A stretch of 64,000 nt of DNA from Fundidesulfovibrio agrisoli. GTDB taxonomy: Bacteria; Desulfobacterota; Desulfovibrionia; Desulfovibrionales; Desulfovibrionaceae. The stretch is taken from the NCBI RefSeq assembly GCF_022808715.1, contig NZ_JAKZKX010000002.1, positions 198,623 through 262,622 on the forward strand, in the 5' to 3' direction. This document shows, piece after piece, positions 1,416-27,115 of this stretch (positions are counted from its first letter, which is position 1; every line of letters begins with the position of its first letter). The notes below the pieces were generated by a model. The model saw only the letters and a list, made by a program, of their open reading frames with translations. It was not told the DNA's origin and ran no database searches. Position numbers and translations under genes: made by a program.

Positions 1416-1428
1416 GCCCATTTTCCCA

Positions 1429-1462
1429 GCCCGCCGGGTATCCGGCGGGCCTCTCTTTTTTT
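1429..1462 (+). terminator. Intrinsic terminator / attenuator between rub and roo
   Basis: A 9-bp perfect GC stem (GCCCGCCGG / CCGGCGGGC) with a 4-base loop is followed by CTCTCTTTTTTT. It ends only 12 bases before the roo ATG, so it either ends a monocistronic rub transcript or allows partial read-through into roo. Confidence 0.75.
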
Positions 1463-1474
1463 GAGGAATCCCCA

Positions 1475-2680
1475 ATGAAATCCGTCGAGATTCTAAAAGA
1501 TATTCACTACATAGGTGCCGTCGACTGGGATCGCCGCAACTTCCACGGCTATTCCCTCTCCCCCAAGGGCACCACGTACAACGCCTTCCTGATCCAGGAC
1601 GAGAAGAACACCGTGGTCGACACGGTGGACGCCTCCTTCGCGGGCGACCTGCTGTGCAAGATCGCGCATGTGATGCCCGTGGAGAAGGTGGACTACATAG
1701 TGGTCAACCACGTGGAGCCCGACCACTCCGGCGCGCTGCCCCGGCTGGTGGCCGCCTGCAAGCCCGAGAAGATCGTCTGCTCGGTCATGGGCGAAAAGGC
1801 TATCAAGGAGTACTACGACGCCAAGGACTGGCCCCTGCACGTGGTCAAGACCGGCGACACACTCTCCATCGGCAAGCGCACCCTGCACTTCATGGAGACC
1901 AGGATGCTGCACTGGCCCGACTCCATGATGACCTACATCCCGCACGACAAGCTGCTCATCTCCCAGGACGCCTTCGGCCAGAACTACGCCACCTCCGAGC
2001 GCTTCGCGGACGAGGTGGACCAGGCCGAACTGGCCAGGCAGCTCTCCCGCTACTACGCCAACATCGTGCTGCCGTACTCCTCCGTGACCCTCAAGATCCT
2101 TGAGGAAGTGGGCAAGCAGGGCTGGGACGTCCAGATGATCGCCCCGGACCACGGCCTGCTCTGGCGCGGCGCGGGCGTGGGCCAGGTCATCGAGGCCTAC
2201 CGCAATTTCGCCCTGCAAAAGCCCGCCAACAAGGCCGTGGTGTTCTTCGACACCATGTGGCGCTCCACCGAAATGATGGCCCACGCCGTGGCCCAGGGCC
2301 TCTCCGACGCGGGCACGCCGGTGACGGTCATGTCCCTGAAGGCCAACCACCACTCCGACGTGATGACCGAGGTGTTCGAATCCGGAGCGGTGCTGGTGGG
2401 CTCGGCCACGCACAACAACGGCGTGCTGCCGCCCGTCTCCGCCATGCTCACCTACATGAAGGGCCTGCGCCCCCAGAACAAGGTGGCCGCTGCTTTCGGC
2501 TCCTACGGCTGGAGCGGCGAGTCCCTCAAGCTGGTCACCGAGCAACTCACCGCCATGCACTTCGACGTTATTGAAGGCGTGCGCGCCAAGAACAGGCCCA
2601 CCCACGACCAGCTCAAGGCCTGCGTGGATCTGGGACGCAAGGTGGCCGAGGCCTTGCAGGCCAAGATCGCCTCCTTCTGA
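1475..2680 (+). CDS. roo: Rubredoxin:oxygen oxidoreductase (flavodiiron protein)
   Basis: This is a 401-residue flavodiiron protein, the length typical of Desulfovibrio ROO. The N-terminal metallo-beta-lactamase-like domain carries the diiron ligands: HVEPDHSG (HxExDH), a His in the MLHWPDSM segment, Asp in SQDAFG and His in APDHGLLWRG. The C-terminal domain from about residue 250 (AVVFFDTMWRSTEMMA onward) is flavodoxin-like and binds FMN. It reduces O2 to water, or NO to N2O, using electrons from rubredoxin. I chose the ATG at 1475 because the protein then begins like the family (MKSVEILKDIHYIGAVDWDRR). The longer open frame upstream overlaps rubredoxin and the terminator. Confidence 0.97.
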   Translation: MKSVEILKDIHYIGAVDWDRRNFHGYSLSPKGTTYNAFLIQDEKNTVVDTVDASFAGDLLCKIAHVMPVEKVDYIVVNHVEPDHSGALPRLVAACKPEKIVCSVMGEKAIKEYYDAKDWPLHVVKTGDTLSIGKRTLHFMETRMLHWPDSMMTYIPHDKLLISQDAFGQNYATSERFADEVDQAELARQLSRYYANIVLPYSSVTLKILEEVGKQGWDVQMIAPDHGLLWRGAGVGQVIEAYRNFALQKPANKAVVFFDTMWRSTEMMAHAVAQGLSDAGTPVTVMSLKANHHSDVMTEVFESGAVLVGSATHNNGVLPPVSAMLTYMKGLRPQNKVAAAFGSYGWSGESLKLVTEQLTAMHFDVIEGVRAKNRPTHDQLKACVDLGRKVAEALQAKIASF

Positions 2681-2718
2681 CGCACCCGCCGCAACACGGC
2701 GTCGGCCCGATCAGCGAA

Positions 2719-2752
2719 GCCCTCTCTGAGTATTTCAGAGGGGGCTTTTTTT
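2719..2752 (+). terminator. Intrinsic terminator after roo
   Basis: An 11-bp stem (GCCCTCTCTGA paired with TCAGAGGGGGC, one wobble) around a GTATT loop is followed by a run of seven T. It lies 38 bases after the roo stop. Confidence 0.85.
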
Positions 2753-2967
2753 GCACTTCAAGTGATGACGGTAGTAAGCGTGGCGATATTACAATTTGGA
2801 AAATGTAGACAATAATCAGCTCAAACCGCACGCCGCCGGACACGAATTATCCCGCAATACTTGGCACTTCGCCGATGCTATGGCATCGTGCCGTCAAATG
2901 CGACCAGCCTGGCCGTCGCACAGAGGTGGCTGAAAACAGACGCTCACAAAACCGCTCCGGAGGAAGT

Positions 2968-4407
2968 ATGAAGCAAAACACGGCGTTTACGGAAGACAAA
3001 GTGGCGTTGCTGGTGGGGTCATTGATCTTCATCCTGTCACTATTCAACGTTGCAGGGATCGATTTGCTCGGATGGGCCGTCAAATCGAACATGTGGACTT
3101 CCTTCGACAAGGTTTTCACCGCCTCCACGGCGAATTATAAAGGCGTTTCCGGCTTTGCCGCATTGATACTCACCTATGTCGCGATCACGGCGGTGCTCTC
3201 TGTCGGCATCAAACTGCTTGGCGCCGACGTGGTGAAGTTCGTAAAATCGTTCACCGTCGTATTCTTCATCTGCTATTTCTGTTTCGCCCTGGGCAACGAG
3301 GCCCACATCGCCGCGACGCCCAACACCACGGCCAAGTTCGGCATCTCCTGGTCCATGGGCCTCACGGGTGAAGCGGGCTTCGTCATAGCGCTTCTCGCGG
3401 GCATCATCGTCGGCAACTTCATGCCGGGGCTGGCCGAGAGCATCAAGGATGCCTGCCGCCCCGAAATGTTCGTCAAGATCGCCATCGTGATCATGGGCTC
3501 GGAACTCGGCGTCAAGGCCGCCGACGCCATGGGCCTGGCCTCCTCCATCATCTTCCGGGGCCTGTGCGCCATCGTCGAGGCCTACCTGATCTACTGGGCC
3601 GTGGTGTACTACGTCTCCCGCAAGTACTTCAAATTCAGCAGGGAGTGGGCCGCCCCCCTGGCTTCGGGCATCTCCATCTGCGGCGTGTCCGCGGCCATCG
3701 CCACCGGCGGCGCCATCAGGGCGCGCCCCGTGGTGCCCATCATGGTCTCCTCCCTGGTGGTCGTGTTCACCTGCGTTGAAATGCTGGTCCTGCCCTTCGT
3801 GGCCCAGTGGTGGCTGCACGGCGAACCCATGGTGGCCGGCGGCTGGATGGGCCTGGCCGTGAAGAGCGACGGCGGCGCCATCGCCAGCGGCGCCATCACG
3901 GACGCCCTGATCCGCGCCAAGGCACTGGCCGTCGACGGCGTCAACTACAAGGAAGGCTGGGTGGTGATGGTCACCACCACGGTCAAGATCTTCATCGACG
4001 TGTTCATCGGCATCTGGTCCTTCGTGCTGGCCTACATCTGGTGCTCCAAGTTCGAGTGCAAGGACGGCCAGAGGATGAAGTTCTCCGAAGTGTGGAACCG
4101 CTTCCCCCGCTTCGTTCTGGGCTACATCATCTCCTTCGCCATCCTGCTGCTGGTCTGCACCAGCTCCGCCGGCGGCGTGAAGCTGGGCAACGCCATCATC
4201 GGCGGGCTTTCATCGTTCCGTCTGATCTTCTTCGTGCTGACCTTCTTCACCATCGGCGTGGTCTCCAACTTCCGCAAGCTGTGGGAGGAAGGGATCGGCA
4301 GGCTGGCCGCTGTGTACGTGGTCTGCCTGTTCGGGTTCATCATCTGGGTCGGGCTGTTCATCTCCTGGCTCTTCTTCCACGGTGTGAAGCCGCCGCTGGC
4401 CAGCTAA
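2968..4407 (+). CDS. YeiH/PF03601-type putative sulfate exporter family transporter, long form
   Basis: This 479-residue polytopic membrane protein starts at an ATG preceded by GGAGGAAG. From about residue 135 it matches the YeiH family (conserved hypothetical 698, putative sulfate exporter): GFVIALLAGIIVGN, the VIMGSELGVKAAD helix, and the diagnostic SGISICGVSAAIATGGAI. Ordinary YeiH proteins are near 330-350 residues; this one has an extra N-terminal block of about 130 residues with three or four hydrophobic helices. It is followed after 18 bases by a 56-residue membrane protein that is probably a partner. In a sulfate reducer a role in sulfur-oxyanion or sulfonate transport is plausible, but the substrate is not shown by the sequence. 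No close regulator is adjacent. Confidence 0.85.
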   Translation: MKQNTAFTEDKVALLVGSLIFILSLFNVAGIDLLGWAVKSNMWTSFDKVFTASTANYKGVSGFAALILTYVAITAVLSVGIKLLGADVVKFVKSFTVVFFICYFCFALGNEAHIAATPNTTAKFGISWSMGLTGEAGFVIALLAGIIVGNFMPGLAESIKDACRPEMFVKIAIVIMGSELGVKAADAMGLASSIIFRGLCAIVEAYLIYWAVVYYVSRKYFKFSREWAAPLASGISICGVSAAIATGGAIRARPVVPIMVSSLVVVFTCVEMLVLPFVAQWWLHGEPMVAGGWMGLAVKSDGGAIASGAITDALIRAKALAVDGVNYKEGWVVMVTTTVKIFIDVFIGIWSFVLAYIWCSKFECKDGQRMKFSEVWNRFPRFVLGYIISFAILLLVCTSSAGGVKLGNAIIGGLSSFRLIFFVLTFFTIGVVSNFRKLWEEGIGRLAAVYVVCLFGFIIWVGLFISWLFFHGVKPPLAS

Positions 4408-5052: not shown

Positions 5053-6102
5053 ATGACCTATACTCATATTCAAGCCCTCCGGGGCATCTTGTGCATCTTG
5101 GTGGCCTTCGTGCACGTCAAGATATACCTGCTGAAACAGGGCGACCCGTCGTACTTCATATACGTGCCCGACCTGATCGGCGGCGTGCCCTGCGCCTTCT
5201 TCGCCATCTCCGGGTACTTCATGGCCTTCCTGGTGGACAGGAACTCCAAGCACTTCCTGGCGCAGCGCCTGGTCCGCGTCTATCCCATGTATTTCATCGT
5301 GATAGCCATGGCTTTCGTGATGCGCGCCTTCACCAACCACCAGCTCAACCTGGACGACCTTCCCTTCGTCATGTCCCTGCTGCCTTTCGGCATGGGCAAG
5401 AGCTACAAGCTGGGCATCGAGTGGACCCTGGTCTACGAGATCTGGTACTATCTCATCTGCGCCGTGTTCGTGCGCCCGAAGCTGACCAGGTATTTCCCCG
5501 GGTTCCTGCTGGCCTGGCTGTTCGCCTGCATCCTGGTGCACATCTTCGCCTTCAGGCCGCCGCAGCCCGTGCCCAACGTGCTCAACATCTGGTTCTCCAT
5601 CTGGAACCCTTCGTTCATCCTGGGCGCGTTGACCTTCTACTACATTCAGCGCTTCAACGAACCCTTCACCCAGCAGATGATGCTGCTGGTGATGACGGCC
5701 GTGTCGCTGGCCTGCCTGGAGCTCTGGGCCGTGCGCTTTTCGGTTCTTTACATCATGGGCATGGGCTCTTGCTTTCTGCTCTACTGGCTCATCAAGCTGG
5801 AAAGCCGCGTAACCTCGCCGCCCATGCTGGCCCAATACGGTGACTATTCCTATACGCTCTACCTGATCCACACCAACGTCATCATTCTTGTGTTCGACCG
5901 CTGGAAGTATTTCACGGAAACGCCCCCGGGCCTCATCGCCGGGCTCATGGCCCTGGTGCTCTGCATCGGCGGGGCCTGGTTCCTTGGGCAGGTGGACGTC
6001 AACGTCCACGCCCGGCTGCGCGTCTGGCTGAACAAGTACCTCAGCCGCAAGGCCGCGCTGGCGGCCCCCCGCCCGCAGACGCAGACGCAGTCCGGCTCCT
6101 GA
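5053..6102 (+). CDS. Acyltransferase 3 family membrane protein (OafA/YrhL type)
   Basis: This 349-residue protein has about ten hydrophobic helices. Its opening (MTYTHIQALRGILCILVAFVHV) is the family signature: a conserved Arg in the first helix (LRG) and a His about ten residues later. These enzymes move acetyl or other acyl groups across the inner membrane onto sugars of O-antigen, capsule or peptidoglycan. A second family feature, YGDYSYTLYLIHTNVI, is present near residue 260. It is a single gene ended by a strong hairpin, with no sugar-modifying partners beside it, so the acceptor is unknown. The C-terminal 30 residues are a short hydrophilic tail. Confidence 0.9.
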   Translation: MTYTHIQALRGILCILVAFVHVKIYLLKQGDPSYFIYVPDLIGGVPCAFFAISGYFMAFLVDRNSKHFLAQRLVRVYPMYFIVIAMAFVMRAFTNHQLNLDDLPFVMSLLPFGMGKSYKLGIEWTLVYEIWYYLICAVFVRPKLTRYFPGFLLAWLFACILVHIFAFRPPQPVPNVLNIWFSIWNPSFILGALTFYYIQRFNEPFTQQMMLLVMTAVSLACLELWAVRFSVLYIMGMGSCFLLYWLIKLESRVTSPPMLAQYGDYSYTLYLIHTNVIILVFDRWKYFTETPPGLIAGLMALVLCIGGAWFLGQVDVNVHARLRVWLNKYLSRKAALAAPRPQTQTQSGS

Positions 6103-6130
6103 CCGGCCTCCACCGACAGGGAATAAATCA

Positions 6131-6165
6131 AAGGACCCTCGCGCTGGCGAAGCGCGAGGGTCCTT
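6131..6165. terminator. Bidirectional terminator between convergent genes
   Basis: A stem of about 15 bp (AAGGACCCTCGCGCT with its complement) has a 4-base loop. It is T-rich on both sides and lies between the acyltransferase (+) and the molybdoenzyme (-). Confidence 0.8.
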
Positions 6166-6205
6166 GTTTATTGGTCACAGTGTTTTGCCGTGTTGGCTCT
6201 GGGCG

Positions 6206-6916
6206 CTACCCCCTGGGGTCCTTGCGGCGCAGCCTCTTGGAAGGCACCGGCGCGTTGAGCGGATAGATGGGGTTGGCCACGGTCCACCAGCCGTCCTGAG
6301 GAGCGTCGGTGAATTCGATGCGCGTGACGAATTTGATGGACTTGTAAGCCAGGTCGAACGGACAGACCAGGCGCAGAGGAGCCCCCCTGTCCAGCGGCAG
6401 AGGAACGCCCCCCAGGTCCAGGGCCAGCAGATAGTCCAGCTCGGGGCGCAGCAGGTCCCCCAGGGGAAGGCACTCGTGATACTGCCTCAGGGCGCCCCGG
6501 CCGTAACCGGTCTCCCCTAGGGCGTGGAACACCACGTGTGTGGCCCCGGCGGCGGGCCGGGCCAACTCCGTGATCTCCTTGAAGCGCACCCCGCCCCAGG
6601 CCACGTCCAGTACGGACCAGCCCTCCACGCAATGGAAGTCGGAGGTCTGGGACACCTGGGGCAAAGCCCGCAGTTGGGCGTAATTCAGCTTGAGCGGGTG
6701 TTCGGCCATCCCGTCCACCACCAACTCGTAGGCCTCGCGGCTGCCGTCCGTGAGCACGAGTTCCCCCGTGACGGAATCGAACGCGGGAGGGCCTTCCTCC
6801 ACGGTGCGGGTCTGGAAGGCTTGGACGATCATACTCCAGGCCGCTCCGGGCCACGCGGCCACGGCTGCGGCGCAGGAGAGCGCCTTGAGAGCGAATCGGC
6901 GGGTCCACATGGGCAT
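6206..6916 (-). CDS. Exported molybdopterin-dependent oxidoreductase (sulfite oxidase / YedY-like fold)
   Basis: This protein of about 236 residues has an N-terminal signal with a twin arginine (MWTRRFALKAL, then a hydrophobic Ala-rich stretch ending GAAWS), so Tat export of a folded cofactor enzyme is likely. The core contains SDFHCVEGWSV, the segment that provides the Mo-coordinating cysteine, and the DLAYKSIKFVTRIEF segment near the C-terminus typical of the oxidoreductase molybdopterin-binding domain. It lacks the C-terminal dimerisation domain of true sulfite oxidases. The ATG at 6916 is preferred because GAGG lies five bases upstream; a GTG at 6922 would add two residues. No YedZ-type heme subunit is adjacent. 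The electron partner and substrate are unknown. Confidence 0.8.
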   Translation of the reverse strand: MPMWTRRFALKALSCAAAVAAWPGAAWSMIVQAFQTRTVEEGPPAFDSVTGELVLTDGSREAYELVVDGMAEHPLKLNYAQLRALPQVSQTSDFHCVEGWSVLDVAWGGVRFKEITELARPAAGATHVVFHALGETGYGRGALRQYHECLPLGDLLRPELDYLLALDLGGVPLPLDRGAPLRLVCPFDLAYKSIKFVTRIEFTDAPQDGWWTVANPIYPLNAPVPSKRLRRKDPRG

Positions 6917-7058
6917 ACGCACCTCGGGTTCCTATGAATGACCCTTCCCTACCCCCGAACCGGCATCCGGTAAATAACGGCGCGCAACCCGGCGGGTCGT
7001 GCCGGTCTGGGCGGGAGGAACCGATTCGTTTTTCTTGTGCGAATTTCCGCATGGATTG

Positions 7059-7087
7059 TTGACACCCAGGCCTCGCCTCGATATAGG
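7059..7087 (+). promoter_or_regulatory. Strong sigma-70 promoter for the rrf2-cydAB operon
   Basis: A consensus TTGACA, a 17-base spacer and TATAGG lie 37 bases before the regulator start codon. This is one of the best sigma-70 matches in the window. Confidence 0.7.
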
Positions 7088-7110
7088 ACAAATCAGCTCT
7101 TAATTATCCT
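7085..7110. promoter_or_regulatory. Imperfect dyad overlapping the -10 region; candidate Rrf2 operator
   Basis: AGGACAAAT and AATTATCCT form an inverted repeat (7 of 9 positions) separated by 8 bases. It begins inside the -10 box, a position suited to autorepression by the Rrf2 protein encoded just downstream. Confidence 0.35.
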
Positions 7111-7123
7111 GTTTCGAGGCAGC

Positions 7124-7606
7124 ATGAAACTCACACGCGCCGCAGAATACGCCATCCGTTGCGTCCTGTACCTCTCCAAGCAGCCGTTTGGACTGGTCGT
7201 CAGCCGCCGCGAGATCGCCGAGGCCATGAGCATCCCCCAGGCGTTCCTGGGCAAGATCGCCCAGAGCCTGGCCAAGGCCGGCGTCGTGGTGGTGCGCCAG
7301 GGCGCACTGGGGGGAATGGAATTGGCGCTTCCCCCGCGGGAGATTTCTTTGCTAATGGTGGTGGAGGCCGTAGACGGCGAGATACTGGTGAACGAGTGCC
7401 TTTCCCGCCCGCAGGATTGCGAGCGCAGCTCCTGCTGCGCGGTGCACCGCGTGTGGCACAAGGCCAGGGCCCAGTTCCGCCAGACGCTGGGAGCGGCGAA
7501 CTTCGAAAGCCTCGCCAGAACGGACAGCAACTTGGACCCCGCAGCGCAGTGCGATGCGGCATGCACCGGCGGAAAATCCGCCACAACTTCAAAAGGCCAG
7601 GCATAG
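7124..7606 (+). CDS. Rrf2 family regulator with IscR-like iron-sulfur ligands
   Basis: This 160-residue protein starts MKLTRAAEYAIRCVLYLSKQ, the usual Rrf2 opening, with a winged helix over residues 1-80 (REIAEAMSIPQAFLGKIAQSLAKAG). It has Cys92, Cys99, Cys104, Cys105 and His108, nearly the positions of the [2Fe-2S] ligands of E. coli IscR (C92, C98, C104, H107). A second Cys pair near residue 143 (CDAAC) is extra. It ends 12 bases before cydA, so it very likely controls cytochrome bd in response to O2, NO or cluster state. An upstream in-frame start at 7037 lies before the promoter and is unlikely. Confidence 0.9.
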   Translation: MKLTRAAEYAIRCVLYLSKQPFGLVVSRREIAEAMSIPQAFLGKIAQSLAKAGVVVVRQGALGGMELALPPREISLLMVVEAVDGEILVNECLSRPQDCERSSCCAVHRVWHKARAQFRQTLGAANFESLARTDSNLDPAAQCDAACTGGKSATTSKGQA

Positions 7607-7618
7607 GAGAGAAGGCGC

Positions 7619-8920
7619 ATGGACACCTTGATGCTTTCCCGTTTGCAGTTCGCCGCGGCCACCTTCTTTCACTTCATCTTCGTCCCCCTGACCCTGGGCC
7701 TCTCCATTCTCGTTGCCTTCATGGAGGTCCGCTACGTCAGAACCGGTGATGAGATGTATAAGAAGATGGCCAAATACTGGGGCAAACTCTTTCTCATCAA
7801 CTTCGCTATCGGCATCGTAACCGGCATCACCCTGGAATTCCAATTCGGCACAAACTGGTCGCGCTACTCGGCCTATGTGGGCGACATCTTCGGCCCCCTG
7901 CTGGCGATCGAGGCATCGGTGGCCTTCTTCCTCGAATCCACCATGATCGGCGTGTGGGTCTTCGGGTGGGACAAGCTCTCCAAAGGGATGCACGCCGCCG
8001 CCATCTGCATGGTGGCCTTCGCCGCAAACCTCTCCGCGCTGTGGATCATCATCGCCAACGGCTTCATGCAGAACCCTCTGGGCTACGTGATGCGCAACGG
8101 CCGGGCAGAGCTTGAGGATTTCGGCGCGCTCATCACCAACCCCTTCGCCTGGAGCCAGTACGTGCACGTGCTCTCGGCCGCGTTCCTGCTCTCCGGCTTC
8201 TTCGTGGCGGGCGTCTCGGCCTGGCACCTGCTGCGCAAGAACGAGGTGGAGTTCTTCACCCGCTCCTTCAAGATCGGCGCTGTCTTCGCCTTCATCTTCT
8301 CGGTGGTCGTGGCCGTGCAGGGGCACCACCACGGCAACCAGGTGGCGCTGATCCAGCCCGCCAAGCTGGCGGCCATGGAGTCCCACTGGCACACCCAGAA
8401 GAACGCCCCCATGTACCTGCTGGCCCTGCCTGACGAGGCCAACAGCCGCAACTCCGTGGAAGCCATCGGCATCCCGAGCCTGCTCTCCATCCTGGCCTTC
8501 AACAACCCCGACGCCGAGGTCAAGGGCCTGCTCGACTTCAAGGCCGAAGACCGCCCGCCCGTGGCCCTCACCTTCTGGAACTTCCGCATCATGGTCGCAC
8601 TCGGCACCATCATGCCGCTGCTGGCCCTGTTCGGCCTCATAAAGTCCAAGAAGCTGCAGGACTACCCCGGCTACCTGCGCCTGATGCTCTACGCCATCCC
8701 CCTGCCCTACATCGCCATCCAGGCGGGCTGGGCCGTGGCCGAGGTGGGCCGCCAGCCCTGGATCGTGCACGGGCTGATGCGCACCAAGGACGCCGTCTCC
8801 CCGGTGGAGCCGCAGCAGGTGGCCTTCTCCCTGCTGGCCTTCGTGGTGGTCTACACCCTGCTCGGCATCGTCGACATCTACCTCTTGGTCAAATACGCCA
8901 AGAAGGGCCCGGCCCACTAA
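7619..8920 (+). CDS. cydA: Cytochrome bd quinol oxidase subunit I
   Basis: This 433-residue integral membrane protein has nine hydrophobic helices. The opening MDTLMLSRLQFAAATFFHFIFVPLTLGLS carries the His that ligates the high-spin heme, and the GRQPW motif (EVGRQPWIVHG) near residue 379 is diagnostic of CydA. The quinol-binding Q loop is of the short type. With CydB it oxidises quinol and reduces O2 to water, and in sulfate reducers it serves O2 protection as well as energy conservation. It follows the Rrf2 gene by 12 bases and precedes cydB by 15. The ribosome site GGAGAGAAGG supports the start. Confidence 0.97.
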   Translation: MDTLMLSRLQFAAATFFHFIFVPLTLGLSILVAFMEVRYVRTGDEMYKKMAKYWGKLFLINFAIGIVTGITLEFQFGTNWSRYSAYVGDIFGPLLAIEASVAFFLESTMIGVWVFGWDKLSKGMHAAAICMVAFAANLSALWIIIANGFMQNPLGYVMRNGRAELEDFGALITNPFAWSQYVHVLSAAFLLSGFFVAGVSAWHLLRKNEVEFFTRSFKIGAVFAFIFSVVVAVQGHHHGNQVALIQPAKLAAMESHWHTQKNAPMYLLALPDEANSRNSVEAIGIPSLLSILAFNNPDAEVKGLLDFKAEDRPPVALTFWNFRIMVALGTIMPLLALFGLIKSKKLQDYPGYLRLMLYAIPLPYIAIQAGWAVAEVGRQPWIVHGLMRTKDAVSPVEPQQVAFSLLAFVVVYTLLGIVDIYLLVKYAKKGPAH

Positions 8921-21710: not shown

Positions 21711-24191
21711 CTATTTCTTAAAGTGTTTCTTGAACCATTCGCTGTGATGCTCGGCCGCCCAGGCCCGGCTCACCTTGCCGTCCACCAGCGCCCGCCAGGT
21801 GCCGGGGTTGGCGATGGTGCCCAGGTAGGCGTGGGCCAGGGCCACGGCCACAAAGAGCACGCCGCCCACACCGTGGATGGTGGCCAGCACCAGCGCCGTC
21901 GAGGCCGAGAGGCTCTGCTTCCAAATGAGCGGGATGCCCGTGGCCGCCATGACCAGCGTCAGGGCGAGGCTCAACCAGAAGAACACCTTTTGCCCGGCGT
22001 TGAGCCGCCCGGCCGGAGCGTGCTCGCCCTCGATCTTGCGGCCGAGGTAGCCGCCGCGCAGGGCGAACCAGGTGCGGTCATAGCTGGTGAACACCGCGTC
22101 GCGCGCCCAGAGGATCGCCGCGTACAGCCCCGCGCCCGTGAACACCAGGCCCGAGACCCAGTGCCAGACCACGGCCGCCTTATAGGAGCCGAACAGGGCC
22201 TTGGCCAGGGTGGCGTTGCTGGTGAAGAACACATACCCCGTGGCCGCCAAGGCCAGGAAGGCCAGCATGCGCAGCAGGTGGGTCCAGCGTTCGGACAGGC
22301 TGAAGCGCTCGATCTCGCCCGGCTCGCAGCGGGCGTCCAGTCCCTTGGGCCCCTGGCCGGTGTAGTGCAGGGTCAGCATGAAGCCCACCAGCAGGATGAT
22401 CCAGCTTCCGTAGGGCACCACCGCCGCCTGGTAGAAGGCGTTGAGGCTGAACGCCGCGTGGCTCACGCCCAGCAGCCGGGCGTTGTCGGTGTACACGGGC
22501 TTGCCGTCCGGCCCGAACATGTCCGCCACCTGGCGGCCCATGAACATGTTGGCCTTCTCGGAATGGCAGTCCGCGCAGCCGTTCGCGCCAAGGGCCAACT
22601 TGGCCGGGGCCACGTTGTGGTTGATGTTGAAGCCCTCCACGTGGCCCACCCAGGTGTCGTCCTTGCGGGTGACGACCTTGCCGTCGGGGCTCAGTTCATG
22701 GATCTCGCCGCCCTTGTGGTAGGCCGGGGCCACGGCCTTGAAGCGCTTGTTTCCCTTGAGGGACTCGTTCAGGGCGGTGAGCATCAGCCCGATCTGCTCG
22801 GGGGTGTGCAGCTCGGGCTTGGCCGGGTTCTTGGCCTGGAGCTTGGGCGCGACCTGATCGTAGGCCTTCTTGATCTCGCGCATGAACAGCGGGGTGTACG
22901 TGCCGTCCGCGTCGCGGTTGGTCCAGGTGACCACCAAGAGCGGGTTCACGGGCGATATCTGCCCGCGCTTGAGCAGCTGGTAGCGCGGCTCCCACTTGAA
23001 TTCCGCGCCCATGCCCTTGGCCCCTATCTTGGGGTAGTTGACCATGGCCCCGCTGGTGACGTCGAAGCCCTCGCCCGCGGCCCGGTTGATGGCCGGGATG
23101 TGGCAGGCCTCGCAGGCCAGCTTCTCCAGGTGGCTGGGGCGAATGCCCGCGTGCTCGGGCCTGGGCGCGCCCATGTAGCCCGTGGTGTGGCAGTCCGCGC
23201 ACTTCTTGATGGTGTTGTCCAGGTCGTCCCGCACGGTGGAGACGTTCTCCTGCCCCTTGGCGAAGTTGTGGTTCTTGTCCGAGGGGTGGCAGCTCACGCA
23301 GGACATGCCGCGCATGTTGTGCACGTCGTGGTTCACGCGGTCGTTCCAGGAGAAGCCGCGCTTCTTCATGTCCGACATGCCGTGACAGAACACGCAGTTT
23401 TCGCTGGGGGGCTCGGAGGGGAAGTTCGGGGCGTACTTCCCGTCCTGGTTGAAGAGGCGCAGGTTGTAGCTCACGGCGGGCTGCTTGCCCTCGTCCACGA
23501 AGCCCTCCACCTGCCCGATGCCGGAGGCGGCCGTGGCGGCCCAGCGGAAGTTGAGCTTCTTGAGCTGCTTGTTGCGCTCCTTGAAGTCGTAGTTGGGCAG
23601 ATGGCAGATGAAGCAGTCGGCCTCCACCACGCCGGTCTTGTCCCACTGGCTCTTGAAGTAGTCGCCGTCCAGGGTGGTGGCCAGCTTGGGGTCATCCTTG
23701 AGGCGGGCGTCGTAGCGCTTGCCGTCGCGGTCGAACTCCAGGCCGCCGCCGCCCGGGTGGCAGCCGCCGCAGCCGGGGACGCCCATGTTCTTGGCGTCCT
23801 TCTCGCCCGCGGCCGCGAACATGAAGGGGGTCATGTCGATCTGGTCGGGATTGTCGTTGTTCTTTTTCGCCAACTGGCGAAAGGACGGGGGTCAGAACTT
23901 GCCCATCATGCCCGGGGAGAGCACCCAGGGCTTGTCCTTGCTGAAATCGTCCCGGATGACGTCCCAGCCTTGCTGGAAGTGGTAACCCTTGGTTATGGCC
24001 GCGTAGTCGTGGCAGCCCTCCGCGCCGCAGGTCTGGCGCGTGGATATGGGCTTGTCCGCATTCTGACCGGTTACAGGGTTGATGACCGAGCCGTCCTCGG
24101 CACGGAGCATGAACGGCGGGCAGCTCCCGGCCCAGGCGGACGACGCCGCCAGCGCCAGGAGCAGCCCCGCGAGCAGCCGCAACGCTTTCAT
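21711..24191 (-). CDS. Octaheme c-type / b-type cytochrome fusion with an in-frame TGA (candidate selenocysteine, residue 100)
   Basis: Read through the TGA at 23894-23892, this is one protein of 826 residues. Residues 1-22 are a Sec signal peptide (ending ASSAWA). One CX4CH heme site is at residues 55-61. Seven CXXCH sites follow near residues 141, 193, 266, 298, 331, 360 and 539. From about residue 585 five transmembrane helices with internal His form a FdnI/b561-like quinone-reactive b-type domain (HYTGQG, WHWVSG, IHGVGG). The TGA is followed in the same frame by PPSFRQLAKK. The downstream part has no ATG start (first plausible start is TTG) and no signal peptide, yet its hemes must be attached in the periplasm, so the two parts make sense only as one polypeptide. 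A SECIS-like hairpin follows the TGA. The alternative is a nonsense mutation. Last gene of a three-gene redox operon. Confidence 0.75.
23865..23894 (-). promoter_or_regulatory. Candidate bacterial SECIS element just after the in-frame TGA
   Basis: On the minus strand TGA is followed by nine bases, then TTTCGCC-AGTT-GGCGAAA, a perfect 7-bp stem with a 4-base loop. The loop begins 16 bases after the TGA and has G as its second base. Both fit the published loose consensus for bacterial SECIS hairpins (loop 16-37 bases after the UGA, G among its first two bases). This is a match to a loose model, not proof. Confidence 0.6.
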
Positions 24192-24195
24192 AACC

Positions 24196-24621
24196 TCACC
24201 TCCTGTTTATGCGTTCACGCGCATCGGCGCGTCTCTTGGCGAGCATGACCAGTGCGGCCAGCCCGATGGCCATGGCCGCGGCGAGGTGCGTCCAGTCCAC
24301 GAGCATGACCGTCAGCGGGGAGAAATCAACATCCGGCAGGTTCTTGAGCATCCGGATGGCCCCGGTGAGCACCAGCGCCCCGAGCAGCGCCAGCCGCGCC
24401 TTGCCCAGGGCGGCGGGGCCGTCCAGCAGGAGCCGCCTGACCAGCCAGAACAGCAGCAGCGCGGCGGCGACATAGTGCAGGCGGTGGGTGAAGAAATAGT
24501 CGGCTGTCCAGCCCAGGCCCGGGATGGAGGCGATGCCGTAGCGCTTGAAAACGGGCATCTGGGCCACGCCGGAGACGGCCAGCACGGCCATCGCGATTCT
24601 GTAGATCCAGGCGCTATTCAT
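24196..24621 (-). CDS. Small b-type cytochrome-like membrane subunit, 141 aa
   Basis: This 141-residue protein has four hydrophobic helices (about residues 5-24, 47-66, 76-92, 107-127). His residues near helix ends (THRLHYVAA, WTHLAAA) could bind heme b. It overlaps the Fe-S gene by 8 bases and ends 4 bases before the multiheme cytochrome gene, so the three are tightly coupled. It is likely a quinone- or electron-transfer subunit of the same membrane complex. I do not recognise a specific named family beyond cytochrome b-like. Confidence 0.7.
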   Translation of the reverse strand: MNSAWIYRIAMAVLAVSGVAQMPVFKRYGIASIPGLGWTADYFFTHRLHYVAAALLLFWLVRRLLLDGPAALGKARLALLGALVLTGAIRMLKNLPDVDFSPLTVMLVDWTHLAAAMAIGLAALVMLAKRRADARERINRR

Positions 24622-25600
24622 GGGAGCCTTCCTTGGTTTCTTTGGAAGCCAGTATTTTCTTCGTGCCCTTGAGCAGGGCCGAGGCCGCGCCCGCCAGAGG
24701 AGCCAGCAGCACGGCCCAGGCCAGCGTGTTGGAATCGGCCATGGAATCGGCCACTGAGGCCAGGTGCGGCTTGCCCGGCCCCTTGGCCACGGCCGCGTTC
24801 AGCTTCTCGAAGGGCACGGGCGAATAGTAGATCGTGTTGGTGCCGCCGTTGTCCTCCAGGCCGTAGAGGTAGCCGCCCCGCTCGCTGGCCATGCGCCTGG
24901 CCTGGGCCGCCAGTTCGTCCCTGGGGCCGACGCTCTGCACGGACTGGGGGCAGGCCTCCACGCAGGCCGGGAGCTGGCCCTTGGCCACGCGGTCCTGGCA
25001 GCGGTCGCACTTGAACATCACGCCGTTGCCCGCCATGGTGGGCAGGATGTGCAGATAGAGCCCCACGCCGGATTGCCGCTGGGGGATCTGCCAGGGGCAG
25101 ACGTCGCGGCACTTGGAGCCGCCCAGGCAGATGTCCGGGTCGATCTCCACCGTGCCGCTCTCCCGCTTGGAGGCGGCGCCCCAGGGGCAGAGGTTGGCGC
25201 AGGGCGGGTTCTGACAGTGCATGCAGCGCCTGGGGATGTGGACCTCCTGGCCGTCCACCGTGGCGCTCTGGATGGTGAGCCAGTTGTAGGGGGTCAGGCG
25301 GGTGTCGTCCCCGCGCTTGTCCGAGAAGTCCTCGTTCTTGGTGCCGGGGGGCAGCAGCGTGGGCAGGGGCTTGATCGGCTTGGGGTACCGTTTGCCGTTG
25401 GTTTCGCGGCAGGCCTCCACGCAGGCCCCGCAGCCGATGCACTTGCTCAGGTCCAGCAGGGTTGCGGTCTCGCCGCCTGAGGCGGGCAGGGCCGCCGCGC
25501 GGGCGCGGCCCGGAAACAGGGCTGCGGTTCCGCCCAGGCCGAGCGTCTTCAGGAGCGTTCTGCGCGTGATGCGGCTGTCGGGAGAGATGTGTTTGAGCAT
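24614..25600 (-). CDS. Tat-exported ferredoxin-like subunit with four [4Fe-4S] sites and a C-terminal anchor
   Basis: This 328-residue protein starts with a twin-arginine signal (ITRRTLLKTLGLGGTAALFPG). Four cysteine clusters follow: CIGCGACVEACRE near residue 54, CMHCQNPPCANLCPWG near 126, CLGGSKCRDVCPW near 158, and CDRCQ with CVEACPQS near 198-219. This is the DmsB/HybA type electron-transfer subunit. A C-terminal hydrophobic segment (TLAWAVLLAPLAGAASALL) should anchor it to the membrane facing the periplasm. It is first in the operon and probably carries electrons between the quinone-reactive b subunits and the hemes. The ATG has no well-spaced ribosome site: a G-run sits directly against it. 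Confidence 0.88.
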   Translation of the reverse strand: MLKHISPDSRITRRTLLKTLGLGGTAALFPGRARAAALPASGGETATLLDLSKCIGCGACVEACRETNGKRYPKPIKPLPTLLPPGTKNEDFSDKRGDDTRLTPYNWLTIQSATVDGQEVHIPRRCMHCQNPPCANLCPWGAASKRESGTVEIDPDICLGGSKCRDVCPWQIPQRQSGVGLYLHILPTMAGNGVMFKCDRCQDRVAKGQLPACVEACPQSVQSVGPRDELAAQARRMASERGGYLYGLEDNGGTNTIYYSPVPFEKLNAAVAKGPGKPHLASVADSMADSNTLAWAVLLAPLAGAASALLKGTKKILASKETKEGSHE

Positions 25601-25609
25601 GCCCCCTTA

Positions 25610-25627
25610 GAGCACGGAGCATGCCAA
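25610..25627 (-). promoter_or_regulatory. Candidate sigma-54 promoter for the cytochrome operon
   Basis: On the minus strand TTGGCATG-CTCC-GTGCTC has GG and GC elements exactly 10 bases apart, as in the -24/-12 consensus TGGCACG-N4-TTGCW. It faces the Fe-S gene and lies beside a sigma-54 activator gene. The predicted start falls on the A of the annotated ATG, which would make a leaderless message; this is a weakness of the call. Confidence 0.5.
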
Positions 25628-25657
25628 GTATAACCTGCTAATTTCATGGTGATTATT

Positions 25658-25686
25658 TTGAAGTTGCGTGTGTATGGGCGTATAGT
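25658..25686 (+). promoter_or_regulatory. Sigma-70 promoter for the PAS-sigma54 activator gene
   Basis: TTGAAG, a 17-base spacer and TATAGT, about 30 bases before the start codon of the regulator. Confidence 0.55.
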
Positions 25687-25707
25687 GCATATACATGTGC
25701 ATACACA
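25669..25707. promoter_or_regulatory. Inverted repeat in the divergent regulatory region; candidate activator binding site
   Basis: TGTGTATG at 25669-25676 and CATACACA at 25700-25707 are perfect inverted copies 23 bases apart. A near-palindrome (TGCATATACATGTGCA) lies between them. They overlap the regulator promoter and lie 42-80 bases upstream of the predicted sigma-54 promoter, so they could serve both activation of the operon and autoregulation. Confidence 0.45.
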
Positions 25708-25717
25708 GGTGGTCAAC

Positions 25718-27115
<1,398 letters not shown>

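Follow-up and report, generated by a model that had tools for sequence, protein, structure and literature searches.

The 64,000 nucleotides of Fundidesulfovibrio agrisoli analysed here (contig NZ_JAKZKX010000002.1, positions 198,623 to 262,622; hereafter the window, in whose own numbering positions are given) carry on the minus strand, at 21711-24191, what is almost certainly a single selenoprotein gene, in which an in-frame UGA codon (23892-23894) would be decoded as selenocysteine (Sec) with the help of a downstream hairpin and the SelABCD machinery. Sequence comparison and structure models support a predicted product that is exported, holds eight c-type heme sites in the fold of the octaheme tetrathionate reductase (OTR) and is anchored by a b-type cytochrome domain with the four histidines of FdnI. 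Taken as a whole, a selenoprotein working as a membrane-anchored octaheme reductase is probably the best explanation of the locus.

An interrupted reading frame

The frame runs from an ATG at 24191 through 99 sense codons to the TGA, and from there through 726 open codons to a TAG (21711-21713), the terminal stop of the gene, with the TGA as its sole interruption; with Sec at position 100 (Sec100) it encodes 826 residues. A preliminary description of the window had pointed to a single TGA in an otherwise open frame, which the rereading bears out, and the parts that it had listed were found again on either side, namely a signal peptide (recognised by eye) and a CX4CH heme site before the TGA, and seven CXXCH sites and a b-type domain after it. 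A plain open reading frame (ORF) finder splits the gene into ORFs of 99 and 720 amino acids, the second starting at a TTG (23873) with neither a Shine-Dalgarno sequence nor a signal peptide visible by eye, in line with the earlier remark that the downstream part has no ATG near its start and no signal peptide; the split leaves the octaheme part with no export signal, so that it can be mistaken for a broken gene. The hairpin that had been placed nine bases past the TGA is likewise there (TTTCGCC-AGTT-GGCGAAA).

Within the window taken alone, an in-frame TGA followed by a hairpin is a weak argument, because such cases arise there by chance. At 65% GC, the window holds 20 TGAs that are preceded by 90 or more open codons and followed by 300 or more, and 135 of its 1560 TGAs (8.7%, both strands) precede a hairpin of at least 7 bp under loose rules that allow G-U pairs, for which reason the hairpin alone was rejected as proof of Sec. 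Long frame and hairpin coincide at two of the 20; the second of these (45909, minus strand) was discarded as antisense to a sigma-54 regulator gene. It is the same TGA in the homologues, together with purifying selection on both sides of it and a hairpin beyond codon constraint, that makes the present case more than chance.

Conservation of the TGA codon

When the named records of GTDB 220, with each species represented by a single genome, were scanned for homologues, 16 loci came up; in 15 of these a TGA occupies the identical position, flanked by GKx-U-PPS or SPS, while the 16th (L021) has TGT (Cys). Since two of the loci (L017 and L026) are probably one gene on two contigs of one metagenome-assembled genome (MAG), a cautious tally gives 14 TGA genes plus one Cys gene. 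The hosts include named Thermodesulfobacteriota, an isolate of Ammonifex thiophilus (Bacillota, L020) and an Eisenbacteria MAG, and the copy of Desulfoluna limicola (L022) sits in a complete chromosome. Among 348 genomes of the order to which the window belongs, seven give a match at <=1e-20: the gene is carried, full-length and with a single TGA each, by five of the seven listed genomes of the genus, and the remaining two genomes, which belong to another family, have fragmentary genes that also contain a TGA each. In a sample of the phylum, 157 of 395 genomes match at 1e-10, many of the matches listed covering the b domain only; 11 cover nearly the full profile (the own genome included) and contain one TGA each, as does a twelfth gene that lies in two pieces. 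Repeats of named-genome loci (L036, L038, L040) and of the window itself (L028), recognised by contigs of equal length and by identical stretches, were dropped before counting.

The Sec100 position is invariant in an alignment of 16 rows and is occupied by Cys or Sec in 38 rows of a wider alignment of 42 family members, from which L060 and L061, of the type without b domain and without TGA, were left out. In a tree of these 42 rows, built without the Sec-site column, four changes between Sec, Cys and other residues are needed, and L021 is placed among the Sec rows on a long branch. Continuous frames with Cys occur in L021, L047, L048, L053 and L058. The L021 MAG, in which SelB is present, holds two tandem Cys versions (1427-3796 and 5848-8415). 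Another relative, L056, with 15 heme motifs in its fetched part, an open frame of 1480 codons and its TGA at GKWU-PPASASGQLA, looks like an octaheme-type unit joined to additional multiheme sequence. Compared with four genus mates, the ratio of non-synonymous to synonymous changes (pN/pS) amounts to 0.03-0.42 in the part upstream of the TGA and to 0.14-0.46 in the part downstream, from which it is concluded that purifying selection acts on both sides of the codon.

A hairpin resembling a bacterial SECIS element

The rules for the bacterial selenocysteine insertion sequence (bSECIS), as given in a figure legend (PMC13188914, Fig. 2 legend), comprise a loop of 3-9 nt, a stem of 4-16 bp, a G in the first two loop positions, a spacing of 16-37 nt and an energy of <= -7.5. 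The window hairpin, with its AGTT loop, 7 bp, spacing of 16 and -8.7 kcal/mol, lies within all of these ranges; its fold has a z of -2.6, and 4 of 200 shuffles were equally good. A hairpin that follows the loop, stem, G and spacing rules is found in 35 of 36 distinct TGA genes outside OTR (L026 was left out as too short). When the codons past the TGA were redrawn 300 times from each gene's own codon usage, the native hairpin was reached in 0/300 synonymous resamplings for the window gene, and in <=10/300 for 33 of the 36. The AGTT loop stands 16 nt past the TGA in all 24 window-type TGA genes and at 22 nt in 12 longer-loop relatives, several of which, mismatched in the stem when read with the AGTT loop, may form a loop of five bases instead. 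Compensated stem changes are few (pair 5 in L020, pairs 4-6 in L056).

The Cys genes of the wider family, seven in number and all with TGT, provide a comparison. In six of them the hairpin is absent (L047, L048, L053, L058, L063 and the first copy of L021), the exception being the second copy of L021: TCGCC-AGTT-GGCGA still stands beside its TGT, at 16 nt (0/300 resamplings), and is read as a putative fossil SECIS left by a recent Sec-to-Cys change. The sequence comparisons thus support a hairpin that is under selection and that the protein sequence does not explain.

Selenocysteine machinery in the genome

Both selA (603.9 bits) and selB (366.8 bits) score over the cut-off and lie near each other on another contig, and selD is also over the cut-off (331.7 bits; G000:C26:15306-16214, L098). 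The gene for tRNA-Sec (selC; 79.1 bits) shares the contig of the window, 5.3 kb beyond its edge, and is called tRNA-SeC by ARAGORN. The selD gene has an in-frame TGA of its own, so that in F. agrisoli SelD is probably itself a selenoprotein. A second, weaker match to the tRNA-Sec model (G000:C2:82504-82593; 52.9 bits, gathering score 47) may be a long-arm tRNA. The presence of SelB was tried as a separator of Sec from Cys genomes and rejected, because it scores over the cut-off in 37 of the 37 genomes chosen, with Sec and Cys genes alike.

The octaheme and membrane domains

Several general multiheme models match the protein, as do, weakly and over hemes 3-7, TIGR04314 and TIGR04315, the latter with 40.3 bits, below its family cut-off of 375. 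In a profile comparison (hhalign) with the OTR side, made up of 13 rows (12 TIGR04315 genes and a relative from the own genome, L010), the match reaches 99.3%, and 99.8% in global mode. The AlphaFold2 model of the octaheme part has a mean predicted local distance difference test score (pLDDT) of 86 and a predicted template modelling score of 0.86. This model matches 1SP3, the OTR of Shewanella oneidensis, with a Foldseek E of 8.6e-7 and with a Z of 11.8 (root-mean-square deviation 4.3 over 327 residues, on a chain of 436), the next chain having a Z of 4.2. When the whole model was used in Foldseek, 1SP3 was absent among the 50 matches listed, and only 1kqf_C was found at E <=0.001; 1SP3 was found by VIA-align and with the octaheme-domain model. 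The OTR fold of the octaheme part is supported by these models. The relative L010 (G000:C20:3790-5040) is a second OTR-like multiheme cytochrome of F. agrisoli, with Cys and without TGA, which scores 289.8 bits against TIGR04315, below the cut-off.

The eight heme sites align one-to-one with those of OTR. Lys277 aligns with Lys153 of 1SP3 (residue numbers of 1SP3 counted from the alignment) in both hhalign and MAFFT, and Lys occupies this position in 13/13 rows of the OTR side and in 39 of the 40 rows of the family. Sec100 aligns with Cys64 of 1SP3 (through L067) in global hhalign and in two MAFFT runs in which C is displayed at the site; Cys64 of 1SP3 has been noted as lying near the active-site heme. 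Three genes among 30 OTR loci read (L065, L066 and L089, all TIGR04315) carry an in-frame TGA at NNFU, that is, at Cys64 of 1SP3, followed by a hairpin of the type GCAACGA-GGC-TCGTTGC with a spacing of 20, and further one-TGA OTR genes appear among the matches listed. From the order of the sites (Sec100 is the sole conserved Cys/Sec between hemes 1 and 2) and from these OTR TGAs, we infer that Sec100 is equivalent to Cys64 of OTR. In OTR, the second heme takes part in catalysis and is ligated by Lys (PMC11024163), a Lys also reported in PMC12285233.

The b-type domain is matched by PF01292 (E 3.5e-16) and by the FdnI chain 1kqf_C, both in profile (E 8.2e-29) and in fold (Z 20.6); TIGR01583 gives 112.8 bits, below its cut-off of 115.85. 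His638, His677, His773 and His787 align with His18, His57, His155 and His169 of FdnI, which we take to be its heme ligands, and 23 of the 42 family rows retain the full set of four, the domain being absent, cut off or altered in the other 19. Among the Sec relatives, L049-L052, L054 and L055 have open frames of 810-912 codons and a C-terminal membrane part without the first and last of the FdnI histidines. In a plasmid search, no record had a place covering 80% of the query, and the 15 of 127 matches listed cover the b domain only and are named formate dehydrogenase gamma where annotated.

The operon

The coordinates of the gene, its parts and its neighbours are collected in Table 1. The genes for the 4Fe-4S protein and the small membrane protein precede the selenoprotein gene in 5/5 genus members. 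The divergent PAS-sigma54 activator has strong relatives in the fetched DNA of four homologues (L017, L019, L023 and L024), an association that is weak evidence because such regulators are common. A sigma-54 promoter before the iron-sulfur gene was considered and rejected: the two-mismatch site at 25612-25626 is at chance level, with 62 matches in the window against 87 expected.

Table 1. Features of the selenoprotein locus, in window coordinates.
Feature	Position	Strand	Basis or remark
Selenoprotein gene: predicted signal peptide, OTR-fold octaheme c-type domain, FdnI-like b-type membrane domain	21711..24191	-	826 aa with Sec100
In-frame TGA, codon 100, read as Sec100	23892..23894	-	TGA/Cys conservation in homologues
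SECIS-like hairpin, 7-bp stem, AGUU loop	23865..23882	-	loop start 16 nt past UGA
Shine-Dalgarno AGGAGG	24199..24204	-	by eye; 7 nt upstream of ATG 24191
N-terminal signal peptide, residues 1-21	24129..24191	-	by eye; helix 2-19 in structure model
Heme 1 site CGAEGCH, CX4CH (C55..H61)	24009..24029	-	CX2CH in most homologues
Heme 2 site CGGCH	23757..23771	-	alignment, with OTR catalytic heme 2
Heme 3 site CFICH	23601..23615	-	alignment
Heme 4 site CVFCH	23382..23396	-	alignment
Lys277, aligned with OTR Lys153 (heme-2 axial ligand)	23361..23363	-	hhalign, MAFFT
Heme 5 site CVSCH	23286..23300	-	alignment
Heme 6 site CADCH	23187..23201	-	alignment
Heme 7 site CEACH	23100..23114	-	alignment
Heme 8 site CADCH	22563..22577	-	alignment
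b-type cytochrome domain, residues 627-824	21720..22313	-	PF01292, 1kqf_C alignment, fold match
Small membrane protein, same operon	24196..24621	-	ordinary TGA stop
4Fe-4S protein, same operon	24614..25600	-	twin-arginine-type N-terminus (by eye); HmcB/HybA-like, below cut-off
PAS-sigma54 activator, divergent	25646..27115	+	

Proposed function and alternative explanations

As to function, the reading that we somewhat favour is that of a menaquinol-linked periplasmic reductase with Sec100 in the heme-2 pocket. In this mechanism menaquinol would be oxidised at the b domain, electrons would run along the chain of c hemes as far as heme 2 with its Lys ligand, where Sec100 would take part in the reduction of a periplasmic substrate; in this genus, the products of the other operon genes, the iron-sulfur protein and the small membrane protein, would act as its partner subunits. 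Because tetrathionate, nitrite and hydroxylamine are given as substrates of OTR (PMC11024163), a sulfur compound (tetrathionate, thiosulfate or polysulfide, for example) would be the likeliest substrate, and nitrite or hydroxylamine, or a selenium oxyanion, would be alternatives. A more specific form is put forward tentatively, as a possibility on the doubtful side of even: in the distal pocket of heme 2, Sec100 might attack the sulfur substrate to give a selenenyl-sulfide, which would then be reduced by menaquinol electrons arriving through the b domain and the c-heme wire. If true, this would be a single-chain, membrane-bound selenoenzyme leading from quinone to substrate with neither molybdenum nor nickel and with no thioredoxin fold, and the exchange of Sec and Cys at the heme-2 pocket would have occurred both in the present family and in OTR.

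That the gene is a selenoprotein gene was weighed against simpler explanations. A nonsense mutation, a pseudogene or a sequencing error at 23892-23894 would fit an in-frame stop seen in a single assembly, in a high-GC window with 20 chance interruptions, but it is refuted by the same TGA in 15/16 loci, the complete chromosome and the isolate included, as well as by purifying selection downstream and a frame with no other stop; its probability is now negligible. Hardly more probable is that two separate proteins are made, as the two ORFs of the ORF finder would have it, or that the TGA is read as another amino acid by a change of code: the downstream ORF has the poor start described above, the preceding gene of the operon uses TGA as its stop, the Cys homologues have a continuous frame, and tRNA-Sec and SelB are present. 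The preliminary description had offered the TGA as a candidate Sec codon in a protein with eight heme motifs, as in octaheme cytochromes, and had named homologues and the selA, selB, selC and selD genes as places to look; the alignment with its conserved flanks, the four sel genes and the match of sites and model with 1SP3 have all come down on its side, and on the sequence evidence the candidate is raised to a well-supported selenoprotein.

A number of observations nevertheless weigh against this picture, in whole or in part. One TGA fragment (L033) has no hairpin, L049 (19/300) and L056 (40/300) show no clear gain over resampling, and 27 of the 36 genes have a stem that by itself comes to <= -7.5 kcal/mol. 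A SECIS search had been suggested earlier; the bSECIS rules and the signs of selection speak for the element, but an Rfam scan of 23700-24200 returned no SECIS family, just weak matches below the gathering score. Against three more distant genes, pN/pS rises to 0.29-0.56 before the TGA and 0.41-0.61 after it, at high synonymous divergence and hence partly through saturation. Some of the b-heme histidines are missing in L021, L022 and L023, and the first and last of the four in L049-L055. Apart from one weak iron-sulfur match (L014), the genes for the iron-sulfur and membrane proteins were not found beside homologues outside the genus, where many of the flanks are short, so that the neighbourhood gives no clue to the substrate; and since even for OTR the function is described as cryptic (PMC11024163), the substrate is a guess. 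With the site masked as X, the match of Sec100 to Cys64 is lost in 4/4 runs (three MAFFT, one hhalign), so the role of Sec100 at an active site is one that we infer. Finally, Gln or Ser stands at the Sec site in four distant homologues (L057, L059, L062 and L064). Unrelated residues had been named beforehand as a sign that would speak against Sec, and they do occur, but in the tree the four form one separate clade without the b domain. L057 also has Arg instead of the heme-2 Lys, which may point to lost catalysis and a role as electron carrier.

The last two points lead to an alternative that keeps the selenoprotein but places Sec100 away from the catalytic heme, as a redox-active or metal- or substrate-binding residue of a loop, in a protein that would conduct electrons between the quinone pool and periplasmic or extracellular partners in the manner of MmcA. 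Besides the fragile equivalence with Cys64 and the Gln/Ser homologues, the low confidence of the Sec loop in the models (pLDDT <50 at 99-104 in the whole model, block mean of 68 in the octaheme model) agrees with it, and MmcA, a relative of OTR without the heme-2 site and its Lys, is a conduit (PMC11024163). Unlike MmcA, the present family conserves heme 2 as well as the aligned Lys277, and Cys or Sec is retained in 38 of 42 rows; moreover, Sec is usually catalytic in selenoproteins. We consider this conduit somewhat unlikely. Still less likely is that the enzyme runs in reverse, oxidising a reduced sulfur compound (thiosulfate, sulfide) and passing the electrons to menaquinone. Formate dehydrogenase N feeds electrons into the quinone pool through a b domain of this type, to which the fold match applies here, and several hosts are named after sulfate-reducing lineages, but OTR is described as a reductase (PMC11024163).

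Comparison with known systems

A 2026 review (PMC13188914) counts 119 selenoprotein families and subfamilies, among which a term search finds ExtKL and OTR as the only entries named cytochrome; it also lists the CXXCH-containing GSU2204 family and notes a thioredoxin-like fold for the majority of characterised selenoproteins. In a 2022 review, one cytochrome c family protein is listed (PMC9312934). The preliminary description knew of no selenoprotein of the present architecture: searches of the open-licence PMC literature, preprints excepted and most papers covered as listings, likewise found none fused to a b domain, but other multiheme cytochromes with Sec are listed, and Sec in such proteins is therefore not wholly new. 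What did not turn up in the published catalogue, as far as this was covered, is Sec in an octaheme cytochrome fused to a b-type membrane domain. It would add a selenoprotein family scattered across several bacterial lineages, with Sec, perhaps beside a catalytic heme, in a respiratory protein that has many hemes and is probably linked to quinone. The Cys relatives, one of them with what looks like a fossil hairpin, set Cys against Sec naturally at a single position. They may also be of use in tracing the true substrate of the cryptic OTR superfamily.

Among the listed cytochromes, ExtKL of Geobacter is a multiheme c-type cytochrome with a predicted Sec, annotated as two halves (PMC5877670, PMC1914089). 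It resembles the window protein in the Sec and in the split gene, but it has five hemes, and its model (NF040886) matches neither the window protein at 1e-3 nor the 42 family members at 1e-5. MmcA, the heptaheme cytochrome of methanogens (TIGR04314), is a weak relative of the region of hemes 3-7 (47.7 bits, cut-off 250). With FdnI (1kqf_C, TIGR01583), the C-terminal domain shares the four aligned His, the NAGQK motif and the fold, and differs in being fused to the octaheme part and in one extra helix before it. A Sec-containing OTR (TIGR04315, WP_331457571.1) is given as 'GenBank annotated' in PMC13188914; judged from L065, L066 and L089, the Sec OTR genes are alike in having Sec in an octaheme cytochrome, but they end soon past heme 8, without the FdnI-like domain, and their hairpin differs. 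OTR of S. oneidensis itself (1SP3) has eight heme sites in the same order, the same fold, the aligned Lys and a Cys between hemes 1 and 2; the window protein differs from it by its longer loops, by Sec in place of Cys and by the fused b-type membrane domain.

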